DNA of 64,000 bases from positions 48,801 through 112,800 of the forward strand of contig JAMCWM010000015.1 of assembly GCA_023481175.1 (NCBI GenBank), given 5' to 3'. Positions 52,237 through 60,859 of this stretch are shown piece after piece. The notes under the pieces are model-generated. The model saw only the letters and a list, made by a program, of their open reading frames with translations, was not told where the DNA came from and searched no databases. Numbering within the stretch: the stretch's first letter is position 1; every line of letters begins with the position of its first letter. The position numbers and the translations under genes are program-made. The stretch is from Nitrospirota bacterium. GTDB taxonomy: Bacteria > Nitrospirota > Leptospirillia > Leptospirillales > Leptospirillaceae.

Positions 52237-53523
52237 ATGAAATATCAAGCTCCCCGTGGCGTGAAAGATCTCCTCCCCCCCGAATCCGAATTGTTCCGCC
52301 TTCTGGAAGACGAAGTCCGAGAGGTCTTCGGCCGTTCCGGGTTCAGGGAAATCCGGCTTCCCCTTTTCGAGTCCGCCGACCTTTTCGCCCGATCGATCGG
52401 CGAGTCGACCGATATTGTGGAAAAGGAGATGTACCTGTTTTCCGGAAAAGGCGGAGAGTCTCTGGCTCTCAGACCGGAGGGGACTGCCTCCCTGATCCGG
52501 GCGGCGATCGAACACCGGCTGGCGGAGCCGGGACGTCTGGAAAGACTTTTCTACCAGGGTCCGATGTTCAGACACGAACGTCCCCAGGCCGGACGCCTGC
52601 GGCAGTTCCATCAGGCCGGAGCGGAAATTCTTGGCTCGTCGGACCCTGACGACGATGTGGATCTGATTGCCACGGTCAGCCGCCATGCGGGGATATCAAG
52701 GGTCCCGGCCTCCCGTCTTCTCATCAACAGCATGGGTTGCCCCGAATGCCGTCCTGGCTACCGGGAAATCCTGGTCGATTACCTCGAAAAGAACCACGAC
52801 CTTTTGTGCGAGACATGCCGTCGCCGCACAAAGACCAACCCCCTCAGGGTTCTCGACTGCAAAATTCCTTCCTGCCAGCCGGTGCTCGAGTCTGCCCCCC
52901 ACCTGGTGGAATTTCTCTGCCCGGCCTCCAGAAGCCATTTCGACAGGGTCTGCCGGGGTCTTGAAGGGGAGGGCATCTCCTTCACCGTGAGCCACAGACT
53001 CGTCAGAGGGCTGGACTACTATACCGAAACGGCATTCGAGTGGGTTTCTGACGCATTGGGAGCTCAGTCAACGTGGGCGGCCGGCGGTCGCTACAACGGG
53101 CTTGTCCGTCACCTCGGGGGTGGCGATGTTCCGGGGGTCGGGTTGGCCATCGGAATCGAAAGACTCTTCCTGCTCAGGGAACTTGCCGGAACGCTCCCCC
53201 AAAAAGCCGGAGCGGCCGTCCATCTGGCGGTCCATCCCCTCGAGGAGGCGGCAAGGCCTTATGCCCACAGGATTCTCGCTTCGCTCAGAGACAATGGGAT
53301 CTCGGCGGTCGGCATTTTCGGTCAGACCCGTCTCAAAAAGGCCTTCCTCCAGGCGGAGAGGGAAGGAGCCCTCTTTATCGGGCTCCTGGGAGGCGACGAG
53401 CTGTCGACCGGGACAATCACGATCAAGCATCTGGCGACGGGAATCCAGAAGTCCCTGCCGACATTCCCTCCCGAGAACCTGGCCAAGGCCCTTCGAGAGC
53501 CTTGGACCCCGGATCCGGTCTAG
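52237..53523 (+). CDS. hisS: Histidyl-tRNA synthetase
   Basis: This class II synthetase is 428 residues long. Motifs are clear: GVKDLLPPES at the start, motif 2 region FRHERPQAGRLRQFHQAG, the histidine-binding peptide LVRGLDYYTETAFEW and motif 3 GVGLAIGIERL. The insertion carries CPECRPGYRE, CETC and NPLRVLDCKIPSC, a cysteine-rich variant seen in many bacteria. The C-terminal anticodon-binding domain is complete. ATG at 52237 fits the start MKYQAPRG; the frame is open further upstream into the promoter. It converges with ccoG, overlapping by four bases. Confidence 0.96.
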   Translation: MKYQAPRGVKDLLPPESELFRLLEDEVREVFGRSGFREIRLPLFESADLFARSIGESTDIVEKEMYLFSGKGGESLALRPEGTASLIRAAIEHRLAEPGRLERLFYQGPMFRHERPQAGRLRQFHQAGAEILGSSDPDDDVDLIATVSRHAGISRVPASRLLINSMGCPECRPGYREILVDYLEKNHDLLCETCRRRTKTNPLRVLDCKIPSCQPVLESAPHLVEFLCPASRSHFDRVCRGLEGEGISFTVSHRLVRGLDYYTETAFEWVSDALGAQSTWAAGGRYNGLVRHLGGGDVPGVGLAIGIERLFLLRELAGTLPQKAGAAVHLAVHPLEEAARPYAHRILASLRDNGISAVGIFGQTRLKKAFLQAEREGALFIGLLGGDELSTGTITIKHLATGIQKSLPTFPPENLAKALREPWTPDPV

Positions 53524-54848
53524 GACTTCCCGCCCAGAAGATACACCGTCGCCGCCTGACTGTACTGTCCGGGGTTGGGTGTTCGGGCATTCACGGTCAC
53601 AGTGAAATTGTGCAGACCGGGAGGGAGATCCCGCCCGGAGTTCACGGTGAAATAAATTTTCCGGTGCTCTCCGGGCGGAATGGCGACCTTCGTCGTTTCG
53701 AAGGCGACGCGATCGGAGGGCAATCCGGATTGGGCGATGGTGAACTGTTCAGGCCTGGGGGTCTTGTTGTAAAGTCCCACCTCGAACTGGTCCAGTCGAC
53801 CGGGGACCTGACTGACCGTCACATGATAGGGGGAATAGGTCACAATCCCGTAGATAAAGAGAGCCAGTGGAAAGAGACTTCCGATCCCGGCCACGACAAA
53901 ACGGACGGTGCCCGGAGAAAGCTTCCGCCCCTTCATGGCCCCGTCCGTATCAACATAGACCCCGTTCTTGTGAAAGGTCAGCAAGGACGGAAGGCCCCTC
54001 TTGGCCGAATAGTCTTCGCAGGCCACCACGCATTCACCGCAATTGATGCACCTCGAATAGTTTTTCGTATCCCTCGGGTCGATATCGATAAAGCAGGATT
54101 TGACACACAGATTGCACCCGGTGCACTCGTTTCGGCGTTTGTGGTCAAAGGCCACCTTCAGTGTGTCGTCCGTCTTGAACATGTGCTGCCAGAGAGGGTA
54201 GGGGCAGACCCATTTGCACCAGTAGTGCCGGACGAGGAGAAGATTGAGAAACATCACTCCCCCGATTCCGAAGATCAGCCAGTAGGCGGTATGGTTGCGG
54301 CCCGTGACGAGATCCTGATAGAGAGTCTTCGGAGGGATCACATAGGCCGTTATGATCACCGACACGACGAGGGAAAACAGGGTCACGCCCGCCAGGAAGA
54401 TCGACCACTGGACTCCCTTCCTGAAAAAAGAAACCTTCCGGATCCGAGGGGCGGAAAGAGAGACCTCTCCGATCCCGGGCCCAAGCGTTGCGGACCCGAA
54501 GGCCAGCTTGGCCAACCCGTTCGTCCACTCGGCAAAGGTGTTCTGAATGCAGGCCCAACCGCAATAGACCATCCCGAGGACGGCATAGACAGCCGTCATG
54601 GCTGTGATCACAAAAAGCCAGAAAGGAAGGATCAAAAAGAAATCGCTCCACCATACCTGGTATCCGAACAAAACGAACCGTCCGGTCGAAAGGTCGATAT
54701 GAAAGATACCGGTAAATGGCAGGGTGATCAGGAGCAGGATGACAGCGATCTGTACGGCGTAACGAATATGGGTGACCCGGATTTTTTGGGTTTTGACTGG
54801 CTGAGTGCCGATTTTCGGCATCGGTATGAGAGGTTGCGTCTGTTCCAT
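53520..54848 (-). CDS. ccoG: CcoG/FixG-type cytochrome oxidase accessory protein
   Basis: CcoG is a membrane 4Fe-4S protein that reduces copper for insertion into cbb3 oxidases. The 442-residue protein has about five membrane segments, a CGWAC motif (about residue 95), CKWVCPY, and two ferredoxin-like clusters: CTGCNLCVKSCFIDIDPR and CINCGECVVACED. A C-terminal immunoglobulin-like domain (FixG_C; residues ~335-442) is in the periplasm. It is the last gene of the minus-strand respiratory unit and implies that a copper-bearing oxidase-type complex is assembled. Confidence 0.95.
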   Translation of the reverse strand: MEQTQPLIPMPKIGTQPVKTQKIRVTHIRYAVQIAVILLLITLPFTGIFHIDLSTGRFVLFGYQVWWSDFFLILPFWLFVITAMTAVYAVLGMVYCGWACIQNTFAEWTNGLAKLAFGSATLGPGIGEVSLSAPRIRKVSFFRKGVQWSIFLAGVTLFSLVVSVIITAYVIPPKTLYQDLVTGRNHTAYWLIFGIGGVMFLNLLLVRHYWCKWVCPYPLWQHMFKTDDTLKVAFDHKRRNECTGCNLCVKSCFIDIDPRDTKNYSRCINCGECVVACEDYSAKRGLPSLLTFHKNGVYVDTDGAMKGRKLSPGTVRFVVAGIGSLFPLALFIYGIVTYSPYHVTVSQVPGRLDQFEVGLYNKTPRPEQFTIAQSGLPSDRVAFETTKVAIPPGEHRKIYFTVNSGRDLPPGLHNFTVTVNARTPNPGQYSQAATVYLLGGKS

Positions 54849-54896
54849 GGAATGAGGGCTCCCGTTCCTTGAGTGAATGAGCCGCCCCCGGAGTTC

Positions 54897-55172
54897 CTAC
54901 TCCTCGGAATCTTCGTCCCGTGGTCCCTTGCCGTGTCCCGTCTGCTCCAGCTCCCGCTTGAAATACCAGGAAATTCCAAGATAGAGAAAGACGGGGACCA
55001 GGACCCCCAGCAAAAAGAAAAGGTAGGCAAACCAGGGAAGTCCCAGAGTAACGTGAACATACCGGGGAAGGTAGGCCCAGGACAAATCCGGTAGGCCTAC
55101 GATCCCCAATCCCCATATTGCCCCCAGGAGAAGGGGTTTGTAAAGTCTTGTCAAAAGACGGCCGCTTTTCAA
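54897..55172 (-). CDS. Small two-helix membrane protein in the oxidase-like operon
   Basis: This 91-residue protein has two hydrophobic segments (about residues 14-34 and 46-70) and an acidic C-terminal tail. I do not recognise a family. Its start overlaps the end of the second oxidase-like fragment gene, so translation is coupled. Position suggests a small structural subunit of the membrane complex. Confidence 0.75.
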   Translation of the reverse strand: MKSGRLLTRLYKPLLLGAIWGLGIVGLPDLSWAYLPRYVHVTLGLPWFAYLFFLLGVLVPVFLYLGISWYFKRELEQTGHGKGPRDEDSEE

Positions 55173-55771
55173 TGATTTCCCGACTGGCGGAGCGTTCCGG
55201 CCGATGGCGACATGCCAGGCATGATTCCGGCGGGAGTCTCTTCGCGCTCGCTGGCCGGGAGTTGACGCCGTCCCTTGGCCACCTGGACCGTCATGTAGAT
55301 GTTATAGGCAAAGATGATATTGGCCAGAAGGACGAAAAGGCCGAAGATCCCGACCATTTCCATGTAAGGGGCTTCCACGGGCTTGATATCGGCCACATTT
55401 CCGTGGAGAAGGATCATTCCGCCCTTGTATCCGGCGATGCAAAAGGCGAGGACCATTCCGACGAGACTGATGTTGTGCATCCAGAAATGAATTTTCAGAA
55501 GTCGGTAGCTGTAAAGAGGACCATTGAATATCTTCGGGACAATAAAATACATCGAACCGAAGATCGCCATTTCGACCCACCCCAGAAGATTGATATGGGT
55601 GTGTCCGAGCACGATCAGATCGGAGGGGCCCCCTGCGCCGGCCTGGACGAAGTTCCGAAAGGTTTCCACCCCGCCCATCACCGCACCCCAGGAAAAGCCG
55701 ATAATCGCGTACAGGAGACAGGCGTAGTAAAACTTCATGATGTAATCCTTGATCTTTTCATCCCTCGTCAT
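55169..55771 (-). CDS. Short heme-copper-oxidase subunit I-like protein B
   Basis: The 200-residue product resembles only the first third of CcoN/NorB-type subunit I. About five membrane helices are visible, with the helix II motif GHTHINLLGWVEMAIFGSMY and the following IHFWMHNISLVGM. The histidine at 57 or 59 matches the position of the low-spin heme ligand. The helices that hold CuB and the high-spin heme are absent, so it cannot reduce oxygen alone. Protein A at 56930-57505 shares the HxHINL motif and is a likely paralog. The start follows GGAGG. Confidence 0.8.
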   Translation of the reverse strand: MTRDEKIKDYIMKFYYACLLYAIIGFSWGAVMGGVETFRNFVQAGAGGPSDLIVLGHTHINLLGWVEMAIFGSMYFIVPKIFNGPLYSYRLLKIHFWMHNISLVGMVLAFCIAGYKGGMILLHGNVADIKPVEAPYMEMVGIFGLFVLLANIIFAYNIYMTVQVAKGRRQLPASEREETPAGIMPGMSPSAGTLRQSGNH

Positions 55772-55793
55772 GACAGACTCCTCCACCGTTCAT

Positions 55794-56924
55794 TTATCGT
55801 TTTGCATCCATGCAAAGGCGAAACCCGAAAAAGTCCGAGGCATAGAATGGCCAGGTCGGATTTCTGGCGCTGACCCGGGCGCTGTATTGATCGCTCTTCC
55901 AGGATCCCCCACGCAACACAAAGTAGGACTTTCCCTTGACGGGATGAAGAGCTCCCGTCGCATCGACCCGATAGGAATAGAACCGGGCCTTGTTAGCCGT
56001 GTTTCCCGGATAGGGTCTATACTTCGAGCTCGTCCATTCAAAGACATTCCCGGCCATGTCGAGAACGCCATAGGGGCTGGCTCCCATGGGATACCGGTTT
56101 ACGGGGGAGGTGTCTCCGACAGTATAATTCGCATTGGCTCGTCTGGGATCCCAGACATCACCCCACGGCCACATTCTCTTGTCTACGCCCCGGGCGGCCT
56201 TTTCCCACTCCTCCTCCGTACACAACCTCCCGCTCCTGAATCGCGCATAGTCCTTGGCATTGTCCATGGACACAAAGGTCACAGGGTAGTCGCCCCTTCC
56301 AGGAGGATAGGTTCCGTGTTTCCAGTTGGCGGGCGGAATATAATGGGCCCCGTCAACAAATTCCTTGTACTCCCTGTTTGTCACCAGGGTTTTCTCAATC
56401 AGAAAAGGGGGCAGGAAAACCTTGTGCACCGGTTTTTCGTCGAAGTTGGCGAAGTTGTCTTCGGAACCCATCCAAAATGGACCCGCCGGGATCAGGACGA
56501 ATCCCTGCGGAATTTTGTACCCCGAAGCGTCAACATTGATCTGGGGGGTCGGAGCGAGATTTTTCCCTTCCTGGAGGCTCTTCGATGCTGCGCTGAGTTT
56601 GGATGCGTTCGTCCCGGGAAGGGCTTCCGTCAGGACTCCCCCCATCGGACGAAATTCTCCGGGGGCGGTGCCATGCTTTCGGACCCCTGCCGTCGAAAGA
56701 CGGACGATCCTGTTCGACGCCAGTCCAACGACATGAACGGCCCCGGCAATGAGAATGAGAAGGACAAAGGTGATTGTAATGGCCTTCCAGGGGAGCTGCC
56801 AGGGGGACATTTCGGCGGGGGCCAGATCGTCGTCGTCAGAACTGATCCGAGGGGATGCCTTCTTTTCTAGATTGTCGGAGGGAGTTTTACTTTCAAGTAT
56901 TTCCTTATTTTTTTCCTCTTCCAT
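55794..56924 (-). CDS. Membrane-anchored SUMF1-fold protein lacking FGE cysteines
   Basis: This ~376-residue protein has an N-terminal acidic tail, one membrane helix (about residues 48-70), a linker and a complete formylglycine-generating-enzyme fold (about 140-376). Fold motifs include FVLIPAGPFWMGS, RLCTEEEWEKAARG, WPWGDVWDP, VLDMAGNVFEWTSS and LRGGSWKSD. The catalytic cysteine pair of true FGEs is missing (SARVSARNP in the corresponding region). A structural, ligand-binding or NirV-like role is more likely than formylglycine formation. An alternate TTG start three codons upstream overlaps the preceding stop. Confidence 0.85.
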   Translation of the reverse strand: MEEEKNKEILESKTPSDNLEKKASPRISSDDDDLAPAEMSPWQLPWKAITITFVLLILIAGAVHVVGLASNRIVRLSTAGVRKHGTAPGEFRPMGGVLTEALPGTNASKLSAASKSLQEGKNLAPTPQINVDASGYKIPQGFVLIPAGPFWMGSEDNFANFDEKPVHKVFLPPFLIEKTLVTNREYKEFVDGAHYIPPANWKHGTYPPGRGDYPVTFVSMDNAKDYARFRSGRLCTEEEWEKAARGVDKRMWPWGDVWDPRRANANYTVGDTSPVNRYPMGASPYGVLDMAGNVFEWTSSKYRPYPGNTANKARFYSYRVDATGALHPVKGKSYFVLRGGSWKSDQYSARVSARNPTWPFYASDFFGFRLCMDAKR

Positions 56925-56929
56925 CCTGC

Positions 56930-57505
56930 TCAAACCCTTTCCTTCGCGGGCCGCGTCATCGTCTCCAAACCCTTTTTGGGGTCACGGGACCAGACGGTGG
57001 CAAAAACATTGAAGACGAAGGTCCAGTGACCGATCCCCATCAGAAGGGCCGCCAGCACGAATCCAATTTTGTGATAGGGCTGATAGACGGCCCTCGCCAA
57101 TGGATAGACGATCCCCTGATCGAGCATCCTGTTTCCCTCCAGAATGCCGAATGTCAGAAGAACGCTATAGAAGGCCAGGACCCCCGAAACCATGAAAACG
57201 AAGCTCAACTCCCCTAACATCTGGCTCCATATCTGTCTCCCGGAAAGTCTTGGAAGAAGGTAATACACCATGGCCATGACAACCGATACCACTCCTCCGA
57301 TAAGGTTGATATGGGCATGGGCCAATGGGTCCACCAAATGGCCGGCCTGTCCGGTCATATGGACCCAGTGGCGAATTCTGGGGGTGGACTGGAGAAAACC
57401 CTGGAGCGTTCCGACAAACAGACAAAAAACTCCGAAAAGAATAAACCGAAGTCCCAGCCGATCTGTCGGACTGTTTAACCGTTCTGTCTCGCTGGCCTGA
57501 TTCAT
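56930..57505 (-). CDS. Short heme-copper-oxidase subunit I-like protein A
   Basis: The 191-residue membrane protein has about five helices and LAHAHINLIGGVVSVVMAMV followed by YYLLPRLSGR, typical of helix II of CcoN/NorB subunit I. H63 or H65 is the expected low-spin heme ligand. Further histidines lie in RHWVHM, GHL, YQPYHK and GIGHW. No helices VI-X with the CuB ligands follow; the gene ends normally and the next gene is different. Together with its paralog it may form a heme b dimer for electron transfer. The ATG follows GAGGG. Confidence 0.8.
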   Translation of the reverse strand: MNQASETERLNSPTDRLGLRFILFGVFCLFVGTLQGFLQSTPRIRHWVHMTGQAGHLVDPLAHAHINLIGGVVSVVMAMVYYLLPRLSGRQIWSQMLGELSFVFMVSGVLAFYSVLLTFGILEGNRMLDQGIVYPLARAVYQPYHKIGFVLAALLMGIGHWTFVFNVFATVWSRDPKKGLETMTRPAKERV

Positions 57506-57524
57506 GATGTCCCTCTTTTCAAAT

Positions 57525-57965
57525 TCAGGAAACCCTTTCAGGGCCCCTCGATCTGGGTCGGCCTTCTCCGGACTTCCCCGAGGAGCGTCTCCTCCGGATG
57601 ACCTCGCCGACATATCCTCCCAGGAACGATACCTCCGGAACCGTTATGAAGAAAATCATCATGAAGGGAGCCACCGGTATTCCAACCGTCTGTCCTGAGG
57701 GATGATAGACTTCATACAGATAGGAGAAAAGCAGGTATCCCATCGGAGGCACGGGAGCCAGCAGCTTTCCATAGGGTCCGATGATGTAACCCGTGACTAG
57801 GGAGACGGCAAGCGGTGCAAGGAGATAAGAGAAGAGGATGCCTGTTCCAAAAATGTGATGAAACGCCCCATTCGTCAAACCAAAAACTTTGTCTGCCACC
57901 CAGAACAGCAGGAATCCAGAGGCAATTCCAACGATTGCGTTGATCCGGTTTAATTTCTTTTTCAA
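57525..57965 (-). CDS. Multi-pass membrane protein in the oxidase-like operon
   Basis: This 146-residue protein has about four hydrophobic segments (residues ~10-28, 42-62, 68-88, 98-120) and a basic C-terminal tail rich in Arg and Ser. It includes GYIIGPYGKLLAPVPPMGY, which I cannot place in a family. It lies 19 bases before oxidase-like fragment A and 33 bases after the CcoS-like gene, within one transcription unit. A membrane subunit role is inferred from context. Confidence 0.72.
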   Translation of the reverse strand: MKKKLNRINAIVGIASGFLLFWVADKVFGLTNGAFHHIFGTGILFSYLLAPLAVSLVTGYIIGPYGKLLAPVPPMGYLLFSYLYEVYHPSGQTVGIPVAPFMMIFFITVPEVSFLGGYVGEVIRRRRSSGKSGEGRPRSRGPERVS

Positions 57966-57998
57966 ACACGACCTCTTTGAAAAGGCTGATATCGAAAA

Positions 57999-58211
57999 TT
58001 ACTTTCCTTTGGGTGCCGGGGGGTGGGCTTCCGCCTGTTCGTGAGGGGGTTTTTGTGTGTCTCCGTCTTCATCGTTGAAAATAATATACTTGATATTTTC
58101 ATCAAACTGGCCATTTTTGTAGGCCCAATAGATCCCGAAGACAATAATCACAAGTGAAACAAGACCGGTTGCCGTCCACAGATAGGCAACAATCCCTTCT
58201 GGCAGTTTCAT
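57999..58211 (-). CDS. ccoS: CcoS-like cbb3 oxidase assembly protein
   Basis: CcoS is a small inner-membrane protein needed for heme or copper insertion into cbb3-type oxidases. The 70-residue protein has one N-terminal helix (LVSLVIIVFGIYWA) followed by the family motif WAYKNGQFDENIKYIIFNDED, seen in full between residues ~28 and 48. The tail is Pro/His-rich. Usual CcoS is 50-70 residues. Its presence with CcoG suggests cbb3-type maturation of the complex encoded nearby. Confidence 0.85.
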   Translation of the reverse strand: MKLPEGIVAYLWTATGLVSLVIIVFGIYWAYKNGQFDENIKYIIFNDEDGDTQKPPHEQAEAHPPAPKGK

Positions 58212-58250
58212 TGGTAGCTCCTTATATTTTGGCTAACTCCCAAAAGCCCC

Positions 58251-58682
58251 TTACTTGGGAGGCTTTGGATAATTCGGGGAACCAGGCAACGACTTCAGGC
58301 TCATCAAGAGATCGACGAGTTCGTCTTTCTCTTTCGGCGACAACTTGCTGAAAGTTGGCGCGAACTTTCCTGCATGAGCCGTCCCTGGAACAAGGGAGCC
58401 TGGATTGTCGAAATAGCGGTGAAGCCAATCGGCAGTGCGCCTCGTTCCTTCCCCGTCCATGTCAGGACCGTCATAGTCGCCTTCACCATAAACGACATGA
58501 CAATCCCGGCAACCATATTTCTGGAAGACCTGATAGCCGGCATCTGATTTTTTTGAAAAAAGGTAGATGTCGTTTGTCGTCCAGAAGGTCACCACGTTCA
58601 TTCGTGCCAAAACGTAAAGAACAACTGCTGACAATACCATTAATCCTGAAAGGAGAAATACGACTTTTTCGCCCGTTTTCAT
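58251..58682 (-). CDS. Membrane-anchored monoheme cytochrome c
   Basis: This 143-residue protein has an uncleaved N-terminal helix (VVFLLSGLMVLSAVVLYVLA) and one heme motif, CRDCH, in a GYQVFQKYGCRDCHVVYGEG context. A class I-like fold with helix DELVDLLMSLKSL follows at the C-terminus. A Met ligand is likely in the middle region. It would sit in the inner membrane facing the periplasm and pass electrons within or to the oxidase-like complex. It is the second gene of its operon. Confidence 0.9.
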   Translation of the reverse strand: MKTGEKVVFLLSGLMVLSAVVLYVLARMNVVTFWTTNDIYLFSKKSDAGYQVFQKYGCRDCHVVYGEGDYDGPDMDGEGTRRTADWLHRYFDNPGSLVPGTAHAGKFAPTFSKLSPKEKDELVDLLMSLKSLPGSPNYPKPPK

Positions 58683-58689
58683 TCGGCCG

Positions 58690-58896
58690 TTACACCAGGA
58701 TTCTCATTAATAACTGAATAATGGCAAAGGATATAACGCTGATAATACCGACAAAGCTCATCGCGATGATGACCTGTTCTCCGCGTTTGAGCTTTTTGAA
58801 GGGACCGATGATATAGCGGGACATGATGGCAAAGGTGATAACCGAGGCCGTGAGAAAAGTAAAAATCACAACAGAAACAGACATTTTAATCGACAT
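58690..58896 (-). CDS. 68-residue two-helix membrane protein
   Basis: This small protein has two hydrophobic helices (about residues 7-25 and 40-66) separated by a basic loop, FKKLKRGEQ. The start follows GAGGTG. No family recognised. It is the first gene of the larger minus-strand respiratory unit, eight bases ahead of the cytochrome c gene, and probably is a small subunit of the complex. Confidence 0.75.
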   Translation of the reverse strand: MSIKMSVSVVIFTFLTASVITFAIMSRYIIGPFKKLKRGEQVIIAMSFVGIISVISFAIIQLLMRILV

Positions 58897-58915
58897 GCAA
58901 CACCTCGCAAACCCG

Positions 58916-58945
58916 ATTGTACACCCGCCTGACAAATATCCGCAA
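58916..58945 (-). promoter_or_regulatory. Promoter of the second respiratory operon
   Basis: On the minus strand TTGCGG and TACAAT are 18 bases apart. The -10 lies about 20 bases before the first start codon, and a terminator is directly upstream, so this is a separate transcription unit. Confidence 0.6.
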
Positions 58946-58956
58946 CCTTAAAGCAA

Positions 58957-58994
58957 TAAAAAAGGCGGCCTCCGCAGGAAACCGCCTTTTTTAT
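58957..58994. terminator. Bidirectional intrinsic terminator between the two respiratory units
   Basis: AAAAAAGGCGG and CCGCCTTTTTT form a stem with a 13-base loop, with A and T runs on either side. On the minus strand it ends the unit 60859-59044. Confidence 0.8.
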
Positions 58995-59043
58995 GTATAC
59001 GGGGCCCAAATTCCCCGCCAAGCTTCTTCATAAAGCCTAAGGA

Positions 59044-59148
59044 TTATTCAGGCTTCACATCGTCGATGAAGAAGGAATAAATGAGTGCAGAGAAAAGCAT
59101 TATCAACGTGATGCTCCAGAAAACGATAGGACTATTGACATTCCACAA
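59044..59148 (-). CDS. 34-residue single-span membrane protein
   Basis: A short open frame starts at TTG, four bases after a GGGAGGTGAG site. It encodes one hydrophobic helix (SPIVFWSITLIMLFSALIYS) and an acidic tail ending DDVKPE. It lies at the end of the first respiratory unit, right before the terminator. The size and layout resemble CcoQ-like or other mini-subunits of oxidases; no homology is claimed. GTG and ATG starts nearby are blocked by early stops, leaving TTG as the only good one. Confidence 0.65.
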   Translation of the reverse strand: MWNVNSPIVFWSITLIMLFSALIYSFFIDDVKPE

Positions 59149-59219
59149 AGGACTCACCTCCCTTTGGATTGTGAGTGGAACACAAAGAAGTTGCCGGGCC
59201 TAGCCGTAACGAATATTCC

Positions 59220-59552
59220 TTAAAAATCCCGAGCAACTTCCGTTCTTTTCATCAACAAACCGACCCAGGTGAAGAAGATCGACACATAGATCGAATTAAT
59301 CACATAACCCTGATCCCACCACGGACGGGCCAAGTTGGGCGAGGTATGGGCTTTCAAAACGGGAACTCCCTGAACAAGCCAATAATGAAGGTGTCCTGGA
59401 AGCTGGGGACGCGCTCCGAACAGGGGAAAGGTCAGAAGTTCCGCCGTGACCACTGTCATCACAAGAAGAAGAATGATGATGCCCGGGATATTGTTCGTCC
59501 CCTCGAGCATTCCATCAAAGCGTTCATTCAAAAGCTCTTCGACATCAGCCAT
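59220..59552 (-). CDS. Two-helix membrane protein in the CcoO operon
   Basis: This 110-residue protein has two hydrophobic helices (about residues 23-42 and 83-101) with an acidic N-terminus and a loop rich in His and Trp (PGHLHYWLVQGV, ARPWWDQGY). The histidines could bind heme or metal. The start follows AAAGGAG. It lies between the CcoO-like gene and the 34-residue gene. I do not recognise the family; a subunit role is inferred. Confidence 0.75.
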   Translation of the reverse strand: MADVEELLNERFDGMLEGTNNIPGIIILLLVMTVVTAELLTFPLFGARPQLPGHLHYWLVQGVPVLKAHTSPNLARPWWDQGYVINSIYVSIFFTWVGLLMKRTEVARDF

Positions 59553-59622
59553 AATGCCTCTCCTTTCAGAGGTATTCATGGGACCACCATTTCGGTCCGA
59601 TTTGAGTGTCAGCTATACCCGA

Positions 59623-59660
59623 AGCCGAGCTCTTTGAAAGAGTCATCAAAGAGCTCGGCT
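59623..59660 (-). other. 15-base perfect hairpin between the CcoO-like gene and the next gene
   Basis: Bases 59623-59637 pair perfectly with 59646-59660 around an eight-base loop. On the minus strand it begins 12 bases after the CcoO stop and has no T run afterwards, so an mRNA-processing or stabilising element is more likely than a terminator. Confidence 0.75.
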
Positions 59661-59672
59661 CCTATTGAAGAA

Positions 59673-60203
59673 CTACTTGAGGCTCATCATGTAATCAGCC
59701 AACGCATTCAAATCTCTCTTAGAAAGATAGTTGAAGGCGGGCATCTGAGACATGGGCTGAACCGCGCGGGGGTTGGCGTGATGGACAAGATGCCACCCCT
59801 TGATGGGCAGACGGCTCCCGACATGGAGAAGATCCGGAGCCTTACGGTCCGAACCGAAAACGGTCGGGGACTCTCCGACAAAGTCCGAAACCCTGGGAGG
59901 GGCACCGAAATACTGCCAGTCCTGGGTCTGTTCAGGAAGAAGGGTATGGCACCACCAGCATCCTTCCCGGACAAAGATAACCTTTCCCTTTCCGATCATG
60001 GTCGGACGATCCTCACCCGTCATGAAGGGATCTTCGATGGTGAACCCGCTCTCCGGACCGTAGTCTTTGGACTTCTGGATGGCTGTTGCGGAGGGGGGAA
60101 CCTTGCTCATCTCCATGGCCGGAAACAACACTGTAATGGACAACGTCACAGCAAACACAGTTCCGGTCATCATAACGCCAAATTTGTACTCGCGAAATGC
60201 CAT
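59673..60203 (-). CDS. ccoO: CcoO-like membrane cytochrome c
   Basis: This 176-residue protein has one N-terminal helix (residues ~8-28), then a single heme motif CWWCH preceded by FVREG. CcoO-specific sequence follows: QYFGAPPRVSDFVGESPTVF, FGSDRKAPDLLHVGSR, WHLVHHANPRAVQPMSQMPA, with the Met ligand in the last piece. CcoO passes electrons to CcoN in cbb3 oxidases. It is short for the family (about 200-240). The ATG follows AAGGAG. No complete CcoN lies next to it, which is unusual. Confidence 0.9.
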   Translation of the reverse strand: MAFREYKFGVMMTGTVFAVTLSITVLFPAMEMSKVPPSATAIQKSKDYGPESGFTIEDPFMTGEDRPTMIGKGKVIFVREGCWWCHTLLPEQTQDWQYFGAPPRVSDFVGESPTVFGSDRKAPDLLHVGSRLPIKGWHLVHHANPRAVQPMSQMPAFNYLSKRDLNALADYMMSLK

Positions 60204-60293
60204 CTCGCACTCCTTAACGCTCTTGAGTTTTAATCTGTCTTCCATTCAGGAATGAAAGACATTCCAGATGCGGAAGTGATCCGCACCCCAAGA

Positions 60294-60323
60294 AAAGGAG
60301 GCCGGGGACCCCGGCATTCCTTT
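60294..60323 (-). terminator. Hairpin with T-rich tail upstream of ccoO
   Basis: A GC-rich palindrome (GCCGGGG/CCCCGGC) flanked by AAAGGA and TCCTTT lies between the 74-residue gene and ccoO. Read on the minus strand it is followed by TTTTCTT, so it could be a partial terminator separating gene expression levels. Confidence 0.5.
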
Positions 60324-60337
60324 CCCATCCGGACACC

Positions 60338-60562
60338 CTATTTCTTGCGAGAAGGATCGAATTTCGCCCGTCCAGCAATCCCCGACATACAAACAAGCAA
60401 CAGCACCATGCTACCGATAGCAGTCGAAGTTCCCATAAAGGCCGCAAAGGACGCAACTCCCTGACTGGCGCCCCCGGGTGTCATTCCACAACAATGGCTC
60501 GGATCGGAAAGCTCTTTAAGTTGTGCGCTTGAAAGCGATGTAATTGCACTTAACATCCACAT
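60338..60562 (-). CDS. 74-residue small membrane protein
   Basis: This short protein has one or two hydrophobic stretches, chiefly AIGSMVLLLVCMSGIAG near the C-terminus, preceded by a Gly/Ser-rich region with CCGM. The start follows GGGAGGTG; an ATG 15 codons further upstream lacks this. No family recognised. It lies second in the first respiratory unit, 60 bases after the 78-residue gene. Confidence 0.68.
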   Translation of the reverse strand: MWMLSAITSLSSAQLKELSDPSHCCGMTPGGASQGVASFAAFMGTSTAIGSMVLLLVCMSGIAGRAKFDPSRKK

Positions 60563-60622
60563 ACTGGCACCTCCCAAATTTTTAGGATTCAGACCTTTTG
60601 ACTCCACAGGAAAAGCGCATGA

Positions 60623-60859
60623 TCACCAGCCTTCGCGCTTTCTGTGATAGGAGTAGGAGTAAAGCCCGATAAGGGCACCAGCAATCGTGGAAAGCACCAT
60701 GATCCAGTAAATCCAGATGTAGGATTCACGCCATGTTTCAAACCGATGGGCACCGAACCACTCCTGCAGACAAAACCCGACAACTGATCCGCTTCCCACT
60801 GCCGAGAAGGCTGCACCGAGCCAATAGGCCACGATACCTTTCTGATGACTTTGAGCCAC
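60623..60859 (-). CDS. 78-residue two-helix membrane protein
   Basis: This protein starts at GTG five bases after AAGGGGG. Two hydrophobic helices are visible: GIVAYWLGAAFSAVGSGSVV and YIWIYWIMVLSTIAGALIGL. A basic tail YSYSYHRKREGW follows. It is the first gene of the CcoO-containing unit, downstream of a near-consensus promoter. No family recognised; a small complex subunit is inferred. Confidence 0.7.
   Translation of the reverse strand: MAQSHQKGIVAYWLGAAFSAVGSGSVVGFCLQEWFGAHRFETWRESYIWIYWIMVLSTIAGALIGLYSYSYHRKREGW

Follow-up and report, generated by a model that had tools for sequence, protein, structure and literature searches.

We examined a 64,000-nucleotide stretch (the window) of contig JAMCWM010000015.1 from a Nitrospirota bacterium of the family Leptospirillaceae, in which a minus-strand cluster of oxidase-type genes includes two small proteins, here called P3 and P5, that each resemble a single module of the oxidase catalytic subunit CcoN. 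The cluster falls, as the original prediction from this DNA had proposed, into two adjacent units, running from 60859 to 59044 and from 58935 to 53520, a division supported by a strong terminator-like hairpin between them (Table 1). Profiles and open reading frames (ORFs) bore out a CcoO-type cytochrome, another monoheme cytochrome and several small hydrophobic proteins; no full CcoN occurs among the ORFs of 53520-60859. The ordinary side of this locus is that it is probably part of a cbb3-type oxidase, and the unusual side is that two conserved free-standing oxidase modules occur with that oxidase.

P3 and P5 both belong to the COX1 family (51.6 and 54.2 bits against PF00115, cut-off 34.8), and the claim that two paralogous COX1-like proteins are present holds. 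They had been matched to the first third of CcoN, at the heme motif of helix II. That assignment is rejected by the positions of the matches, which lie at 306-413 (P3) and 309-408 (P5) of 436 in the Pfam COX1 profile and at 341-462 and 306-461 of 474 in the CcoN profile TIGR00780. By these alignments P3 and P5 correspond to the last third of CcoN, with their HxHIN motif opposite CcoN H344/H346, which we take, from cbb3 structures, to be the heme b3/heme b ligand pair of helix X; both proteins carry this helix X-type HxH pair. The start of P5 is likely 57505 rather than 57613, as first given, because most close homologues have the resulting size of 191 amino acids (aa), and histidines of P3 are numbered on the ORF counted from 55786.

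Conservation of the histidines is close to complete. H62, H64, H100 and H104 of P3 are each present in 120/120 sequences (the best 120 of 666 homologues found), and among the 58 homologues of P5, all of them aligned, H56 and H63 are found in 58/58 and H65 in 57/58. The two single-module proteins keep HxHIN almost invariably, and the composition of the cluster is, as first noted, unusual. No conserved CuB ligand pair (HN/HH, of the middle module) was seen by eye in 14 aligned rows of P3 and 17 of P5, where an HH is confined to a loop and to a small number of the P5 rows. The predicted models have four long helices each (predicted local distance difference test scores of 79 and 78), and neither protein has the twelve helices in one chain of the subunit I superfamily. 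The closest named relatives of P3, a 'Nitrospirae bacterium' protein (100% identical) and one from Leptospirillum sp. (76%), put the host near Leptospirillum. P3 and P5 are real, conserved proteins that may well bind heme.

The ratio of nonsynonymous to synonymous substitution rates (dN/dS) was 0.017-0.088 for P3 (12/18 comparisons with measurable dS) and 0.053-0.121 for P5 (14/18); because dS was often near saturation, some loci shared a genome and, for P3, some comparisons covered only 106-118 codons, it is the direction of these values alone that counts. Both genes are under purifying selection. In a tree, a branch (95/89) separates P3, P5 and other small modules from the third module of either CcoN type. 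The notion that a broken ccoN left P3 and P5 behind as degenerate fragments, raised by the original prediction as something that might undo it and in keeping with their spanning only one CcoN third, can be set aside as next to impossible given the low dN/dS, the tree placement and the homologues in several groups. The P3 profile matches each of the three thirds of CcoN, which makes P3 look like a free copy of the heme-copper oxidase repeat unit.

Where, then, is the catalytic subunit? The absence of CcoN had been taken to mean a membrane complex rather than a normal oxidase, and CcoN is indeed absent from the cluster, but a complete copy lies elsewhere in the same genome (G000, C32:16213-17565), unlinked to the cluster. 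A complete CcoN co-regulated with the cluster was the other finding that the prediction had said would count against it, and the complete gene, half of that finding, is there. Full or nearly full CcoN is present in 11/13 genomes of the genus (contig-end pieces in G012, a fragment in G005), and five of seven further genomes of the family have a full copy; that of G014 is cut by a contig end, and none was found in G019, an incomplete metagenome-assembled genome (MAG). With these matches in the own genome and its relatives, the possibility that CcoN is missing from the genome is refuted. In G015, a single contig, the cluster lies at ~648-655 kb, and just one full CcoN is present, at 753.7 kb. Residues H65, H206, Y250, H256/H257 and H344/H346, to which we assign roles as active-site tyrosine and as ligands of the low-spin heme, the high-spin heme and CuB on the assumption that cbb3 structures apply, are invariant in 13/13 aligned CcoN sequences and present in the own copy, so that this gene outside the window cluster has the ligands of a cbb3-type oxidase. 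The closest solved chains of the lineage's CcoN are likewise cbb3 (3mk7_A, E 3.5e-78). The CcoO-like gene of the cluster scores 65 bits against PF02433 (cut-off 29.6), as a monoheme CcoO should, and is the genome's only FixO match over the cut-off; such a match occurs once each in 10/13 genomes of the genus (none in G001, G005 and G007), 3-4 kb from P5 in 9/10 and on a separate contig in G008.

Pieces of CcoN were also seen at contig ends of C3, C28 and C31 in the own genome, where at least one further copy seems to have been broken by assembly, as in G012. In several Leptospirillia (L183, L184, L190 and C28:1-3673 of the own genome, L137), there lie downstream of one CcoN copy a 446-448-aa AAA+-like protein, for which NCBIfam gave a weak GvpN match only, and a 564-567-aa protein (incomplete in L190), an order that we take to resemble NorQ/NorD.

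Other groups show how the parts may belong together. Among 80 retained of 217 confirmed P3 relatives from a scan of genome contigs, host titles include Leptospirillum, Candidatus Nitrotoga, Gallionellales, Mariprofundaceae, other Zetaproteobacteria, Candidatus Tenderia, many Gammaproteobacteria and one labelled Biocath. Nitrotoga fabula (L141, L142) has a diheme cytochrome c, a cytochrome c, P3, a thioredoxin-like protein and family F2, then, after oppositely oriented genes, F13, CcoN, the CcoO-like gene, F9, F11, the CcoS-like gene, a cytochrome c, F8, the FGE gene and F24, followed by an 867-aa protein, a CcoG-like polyferredoxin (by eye) and P5 on the opposite strand. CcoN, which is 54-55% identical between Leptospirillia and Nitrotoga, here directly precedes the CcoO-like gene, an order also found in Gallionellales, Zetaproteobacteria and Gammaproteobacteria: across 81 P3 loci, CcoN of >400 aa was called in 36, and the CcoO-like family is the next gene in 34 of these. 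Over the 81 loci, many of them incomplete, the family counts are 42 for F7 (the CcoO-like family), 43 for FGE, 40 for F8 and 34 for CcoS-like. P3 lies directly after a cytochrome c gene in 46/59 called cases. In G021, of Nitrospirota family f2, CcoN, CcoO and F9 share one contig, and P5, P3 and FGE- and CcoG-like genes (by eye) another. The Leptospirillia arrangement looks like a reshuffled version of a CcoN-containing cluster, and the best reading of these gene orders is that ccoN moved away from the cluster in Leptospirillia.

These comparisons give no support to the phrase 'rather than a normal oxidase', in that a full CcoN with all ligands is present in the own genome and most relatives, and its orthologue stands beside the same CcoO-like gene in other groups. 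In L052 and L144, both from Gammaproteobacteria, a 335-336-aa membrane protein stands beside a 257-274-aa VWA-like protein (by eye) near P3 or P5.

P3 and P5 also follow one lineage of CcoN. Among 78 Zetaproteobacteria genomes, P3 was found in 44, P5 in 43, both in 40 and neither in 31 (Fisher P 8e-14, relatedness ignored). CcoN in these genomes forms two score classes (1.4-1.9 vs 0.5-0.7 bits per position), the type of the Nitrotoga/Leptospirillia lineage being present in 43, the other type in 43, both in 20 and none in 12. P3 or P5 occurs in 42/43 genomes with the lineage type vs 5/35 without it, and in 3/23 with the other type only. A sample of 15 genomes chosen for carrying P3 yielded a clear P5 in 13. 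P3 and P5 share a contig in 6/40 Zetaproteobacteria drafts (different contigs in 34/40) and in the Pseudomonadota-type G100, G101, G103, G104 and G107; in these 11 genomes, a count that leaves out Nitrospirota (where the two lie within ~2 kb), they are 12.9-18.1 kb apart, with lineage-type CcoN between them in 10/11. In G102 they are on different contigs, P5 ~29 kb from the nearest end. P3, P5 and CcoN often form a loose neighbourhood. This nearness supports a shared system and at the same time weakens co-occurrence as independent evidence.

The remaining genes of the cluster are listed in Table 1. The gene list of the original prediction was incomplete, having overlooked the FGE/SUMF1-domain gene, which lies between P5 and P3, and the 34-aa gene, clearly similar peptides to which lie between F9 and F11 in L139, L140, L154 and L155. 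Four-base overlaps at P5/FGE and at P3/F14 give unit 2 an operon-like character. Genes similar to the assembly factors CcoS and CcoG were found as claimed, but at scores under the cut-offs. Diheme CcoP (TIGR00782) exceeded the cut-off in 0/21 genomes; 19/21 gave weak, partial matches to the profile. F8 as a CuB donor through its FHH was considered and rejected, the F8 of Nitrotoga having no such pair.

Table 1. Genes and features of the oxidase-type cluster, in order of transcription (window coordinates).
Feature	Position	Strand	Basis and remarks
Small hydrophobic protein, 78 aa, first gene of unit 1	60623..60859	-	start set from sequence; orthologues at equivalent place in L139, L154, L155
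Small hydrophobic protein, 74 aa	60338..60562	-	start set from sequence; orthologues in L139, L154
CcoO/FixO-like monoheme cytochrome c	59673..60245 (likely start 60203)	-	FixO match
F9, small hydrophobic protein without heme motif	59220..59579	-	weak CcoP-anchor likeness (FixP_N E 0.039, under cut-off)
34-aa peptide with a single hydrophobic stretch, closing unit 1	59044..59148	-	CcoQ/CcoM-like by size and place only
Terminator-like hairpin between units 1 and 2	~58955..58995	-	-26.4 kcal/mol, z -4.06, then T run
F11, small hydrophobic protein, likely 68 aa, first gene of unit 2	58690..58935	-	ORF and gene-family comparison of loci
Monoheme cytochrome c, F1 family, N-terminal hydrophobic stretch	58251..58682	-	Cytochrom_C E 4e-8, one CxxCH
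CcoS-like assembly protein	57999..58211	-	FixS 21.3 bits, cut-off 23.1
F8, membrane protein	57525..57965	-	no family over cut-off; family in 40/81 loci
P5, free-standing COX1 module, 191 aa	56930..57505	-	PF00115, alignment, model; four helices; H56, H63, H65
FGE/SUMF1-domain protein	55794..56933	-	PF03781 E 2.4e-50
P3, free-standing COX1 module	55169..55771	-	PF00115, alignment, model; four helices; H62, H64, H100, H104
F14, small hydrophobic protein, overlaps P3 at its end	54897..55172	-	ORF and gene-family comparison of loci
CcoG-like polyferredoxin	53520..54848	-	TIGR02745 E 7.9e-38, 130.5 bits, cut-off 316.7

Taken together, we think it likely that the cluster supplies a divergent cbb3-type O2 reductase with everything except its catalytic subunit, the ccoN of which lies elsewhere, and that P3 and P5 are, by prediction, extra heme-b subunits. 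The lineage is called divergent because CcoN (226-254 bits for full-length members against TIGR00780, cut-off 583.15), CcoO and CcoG all score under their NCBIfam cut-offs. In such an enzyme, electrons from high-potential donors (Fe(II), nitrite or a cathode) would enter through periplasmic and anchored monoheme cytochromes c, and would pass by way of CcoO to heme b of CcoN, for O2 reduction at b3/CuB. Docked on CcoN or CcoO, P3 and P5 would bind heme b near the periplasmic face, between the HxH and a partner histidine, providing an additional electron entry or relay that might replace the missing CcoP.

Several points weigh against this assignment. Leptospirillia CcoN reaches only 243-253 bits (full-length matches) where 583 are called for, the CcoO-like protein 64.4 of 200.65 (TIGR00781) and the CcoG-like protein also falls short of its NCBIfam cut-off; the partnership of CcoN and CcoO in Leptospirillia is one that we infer, and the heme of P3/P5, the complex and its enzyme activity are all predictions from genes. 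Four Zetaproteobacteria without lineage-type CcoN have P3 and four have P5, seven hold only one of the two, and G128 has the lineage-type CcoN with neither; among incomplete MAGs, G007, G014 and G016 have CcoN and no P3/P5, and G019 the reverse. The co-occurrence counts ignore shared ancestry, and the association is due in part to joint inheritance, since P3, CcoN and P5 lie near one another. In L068 and L076 (Mariprofundaceae/Zetaproteobacteria), F8, FGE, F11 and the CcoS-like gene lie away from CcoN. As for the repeat-unit likeness, P5 matches the first CcoN third weakly (3e-4) and the middle third over 38 columns only, without the HxH, and in VIA-align unrelated four-helix bundles score level with oxidases when compared with P3.

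P3 and P5 could also be assembly factors, for example heme-b holders that load CcoN, working beside the CcoG- and CcoS-like and thioredoxin-like proteins. They do lie among maturation genes (CcoS-like, CcoG-like, FGE domain), a thioredoxin-like gene adjoins P3 in Nitrotoga, P5 of Nitrotoga fabula is ~10 kb or more from CcoN on the other strand, and the active-site ligands of CcoN are complete without either protein. Canonical cbb3, however, is not known to need P3 and P5 for its maturation, we know of no cbb3 assembly factor built from an oxidase module, and both proteins are absent from 20/23 genomes in which the other CcoN type occurs alone. The position of P3 directly 3' of a cytochrome c gene favours a relay over a chaperone, and we regard an assembly role as rather unlikely. 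We give still less credence to an independent heme b/c complex, outside any oxidase, that would move electrons from quinol to cytochrome c or the reverse. A cluster without CcoN and the conserved HxH would suit it, and many hosts come from groups of iron and nitrite oxidisers needing, according to the literature, uphill electron transport; but in other groups CcoN is flanked by these very genes, the cluster carries the genome's only CcoO over the cut-off, and P3/P5 accompany the lineage-type CcoN.

The divergent oxidase that we favour has precedents as well as peculiarities. Orphan CcoN isosubunits are reportedly encoded outside a full operon in Pseudomonas, where such 'partial (orphan) operons' stand beside full ones (PMC5697931), whereas the sole CcoN kind found here is unlinked. 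With the cbb3 oxidases of the C-family (CcoNOQP) it shares a CcoN in which every ligand of the hemes and CuB is present along with the Y-x5-HH signature, a monoheme CcoO and, at scores under the cut-offs, CcoG- and CcoS-like factors; it differs in the unlinked ccoN of Leptospirillia, in having no CcoP over the cut-off, in the extra monoheme cytochromes and two single-module COX1-like proteins, and in scores well under the NCBIfam cut-offs.

The original statement that no described system has this composition was too strong, since cbb3 oxidases of iron oxidisers are described (PMC8788666, PMC4725956). The genome of Sideroxydans ES-1 carries two cbb3 clusters that differ in subunit make-up, and a cyc1 homologue goes with a cbb3 cluster in Sideroxydans (PMC8788666). 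The proximal and distal cbb3 kinds of iron oxidisers, Zetaproteobacteria among them (PMC8788666, PMC7029218), likewise differ in subunits, with cyc1 tied to a cbb3 cluster, and in our 78 Zetaproteobacteria two CcoN classes separate. For Ferrovum JA12, a cbb3 of subunits I and II is described, in which co-localised cytochromes c possibly replace subunit III (PMC4725956); subunit III is absent there, no CcoP is found over the cut-off here, and we found a P5 homologue in Ferrovum sp., although the accessible text names no single-module subunit. Both cbb3 and bd oxidases are described for Leptospirillum, and its 'cbb3' quantitative PCR marker rose 4.5-fold at 23% O2 (PMC6695575). The forward primer published for this marker in L. 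ferriphilum matches 59787-59806 with one mismatch, from which the marker is likely the orthologue of the window CcoO gene; the reverse primer has no match to that gene within three mismatches. In Ca. Tenderia, cyc1 is very highly expressed and complex IV-2 is among the most expressed genes (PMC5371394), and a cbb3 oxidase is predicted for Nitrotoga (PMC6050957). Our literature search, mainly of open-access text, found no description of the P3/P5 pair and no paper that works out the subunit make-up of this oxidase.

Free-standing COX1 modules of ~135 residues with an HxH occur in other Nitrospirota as well (L203-L222, L028, L173, L174). In 20 Nitrospirota regions chosen for having a match, all 20 hold an HxH module, of 133-141 residues except for one called at 174, and a CxxCH protein on the same strand within 400 bases accompanies 6/20 of them vs 7/86 background genes. 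By Pfam COX1, 2/5 of these modules match the first third and 3/5 the last. In L028, L174, L205, L206 and L208-L210 the module follows a monoheme cytochrome c of 118-124 residues. A bolder proposal, which we put forward tentatively and consider somewhat improbable, is that P3 and P5 work as single-module heme-copper proteins. With each other and with membrane cytochromes c they would form a mini heme-copper core that serves a cbb3-type oxidase, on which it is docked, as a heme-b relay, and they would be part of a wider, undescribed set of free-standing four-helix HxH modules showing the lone repeat unit of all heme-copper oxidases.

The cluster looks like part of the likely terminal oxidase of bacteria that draw electrons from iron, nitrite or a cathode. 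Should P3 and P5 be subunits of it, two more heme proteins would have to enter the models of electron flow for Leptospirillum, Nitrotoga, Gallionella relatives and Mariprofundus. That heme-copper oxidases arose by repetition of a four-helix unit is an old idea, and a free module that matches all three thirds of CcoN would make such an origin directly testable in the laboratory.

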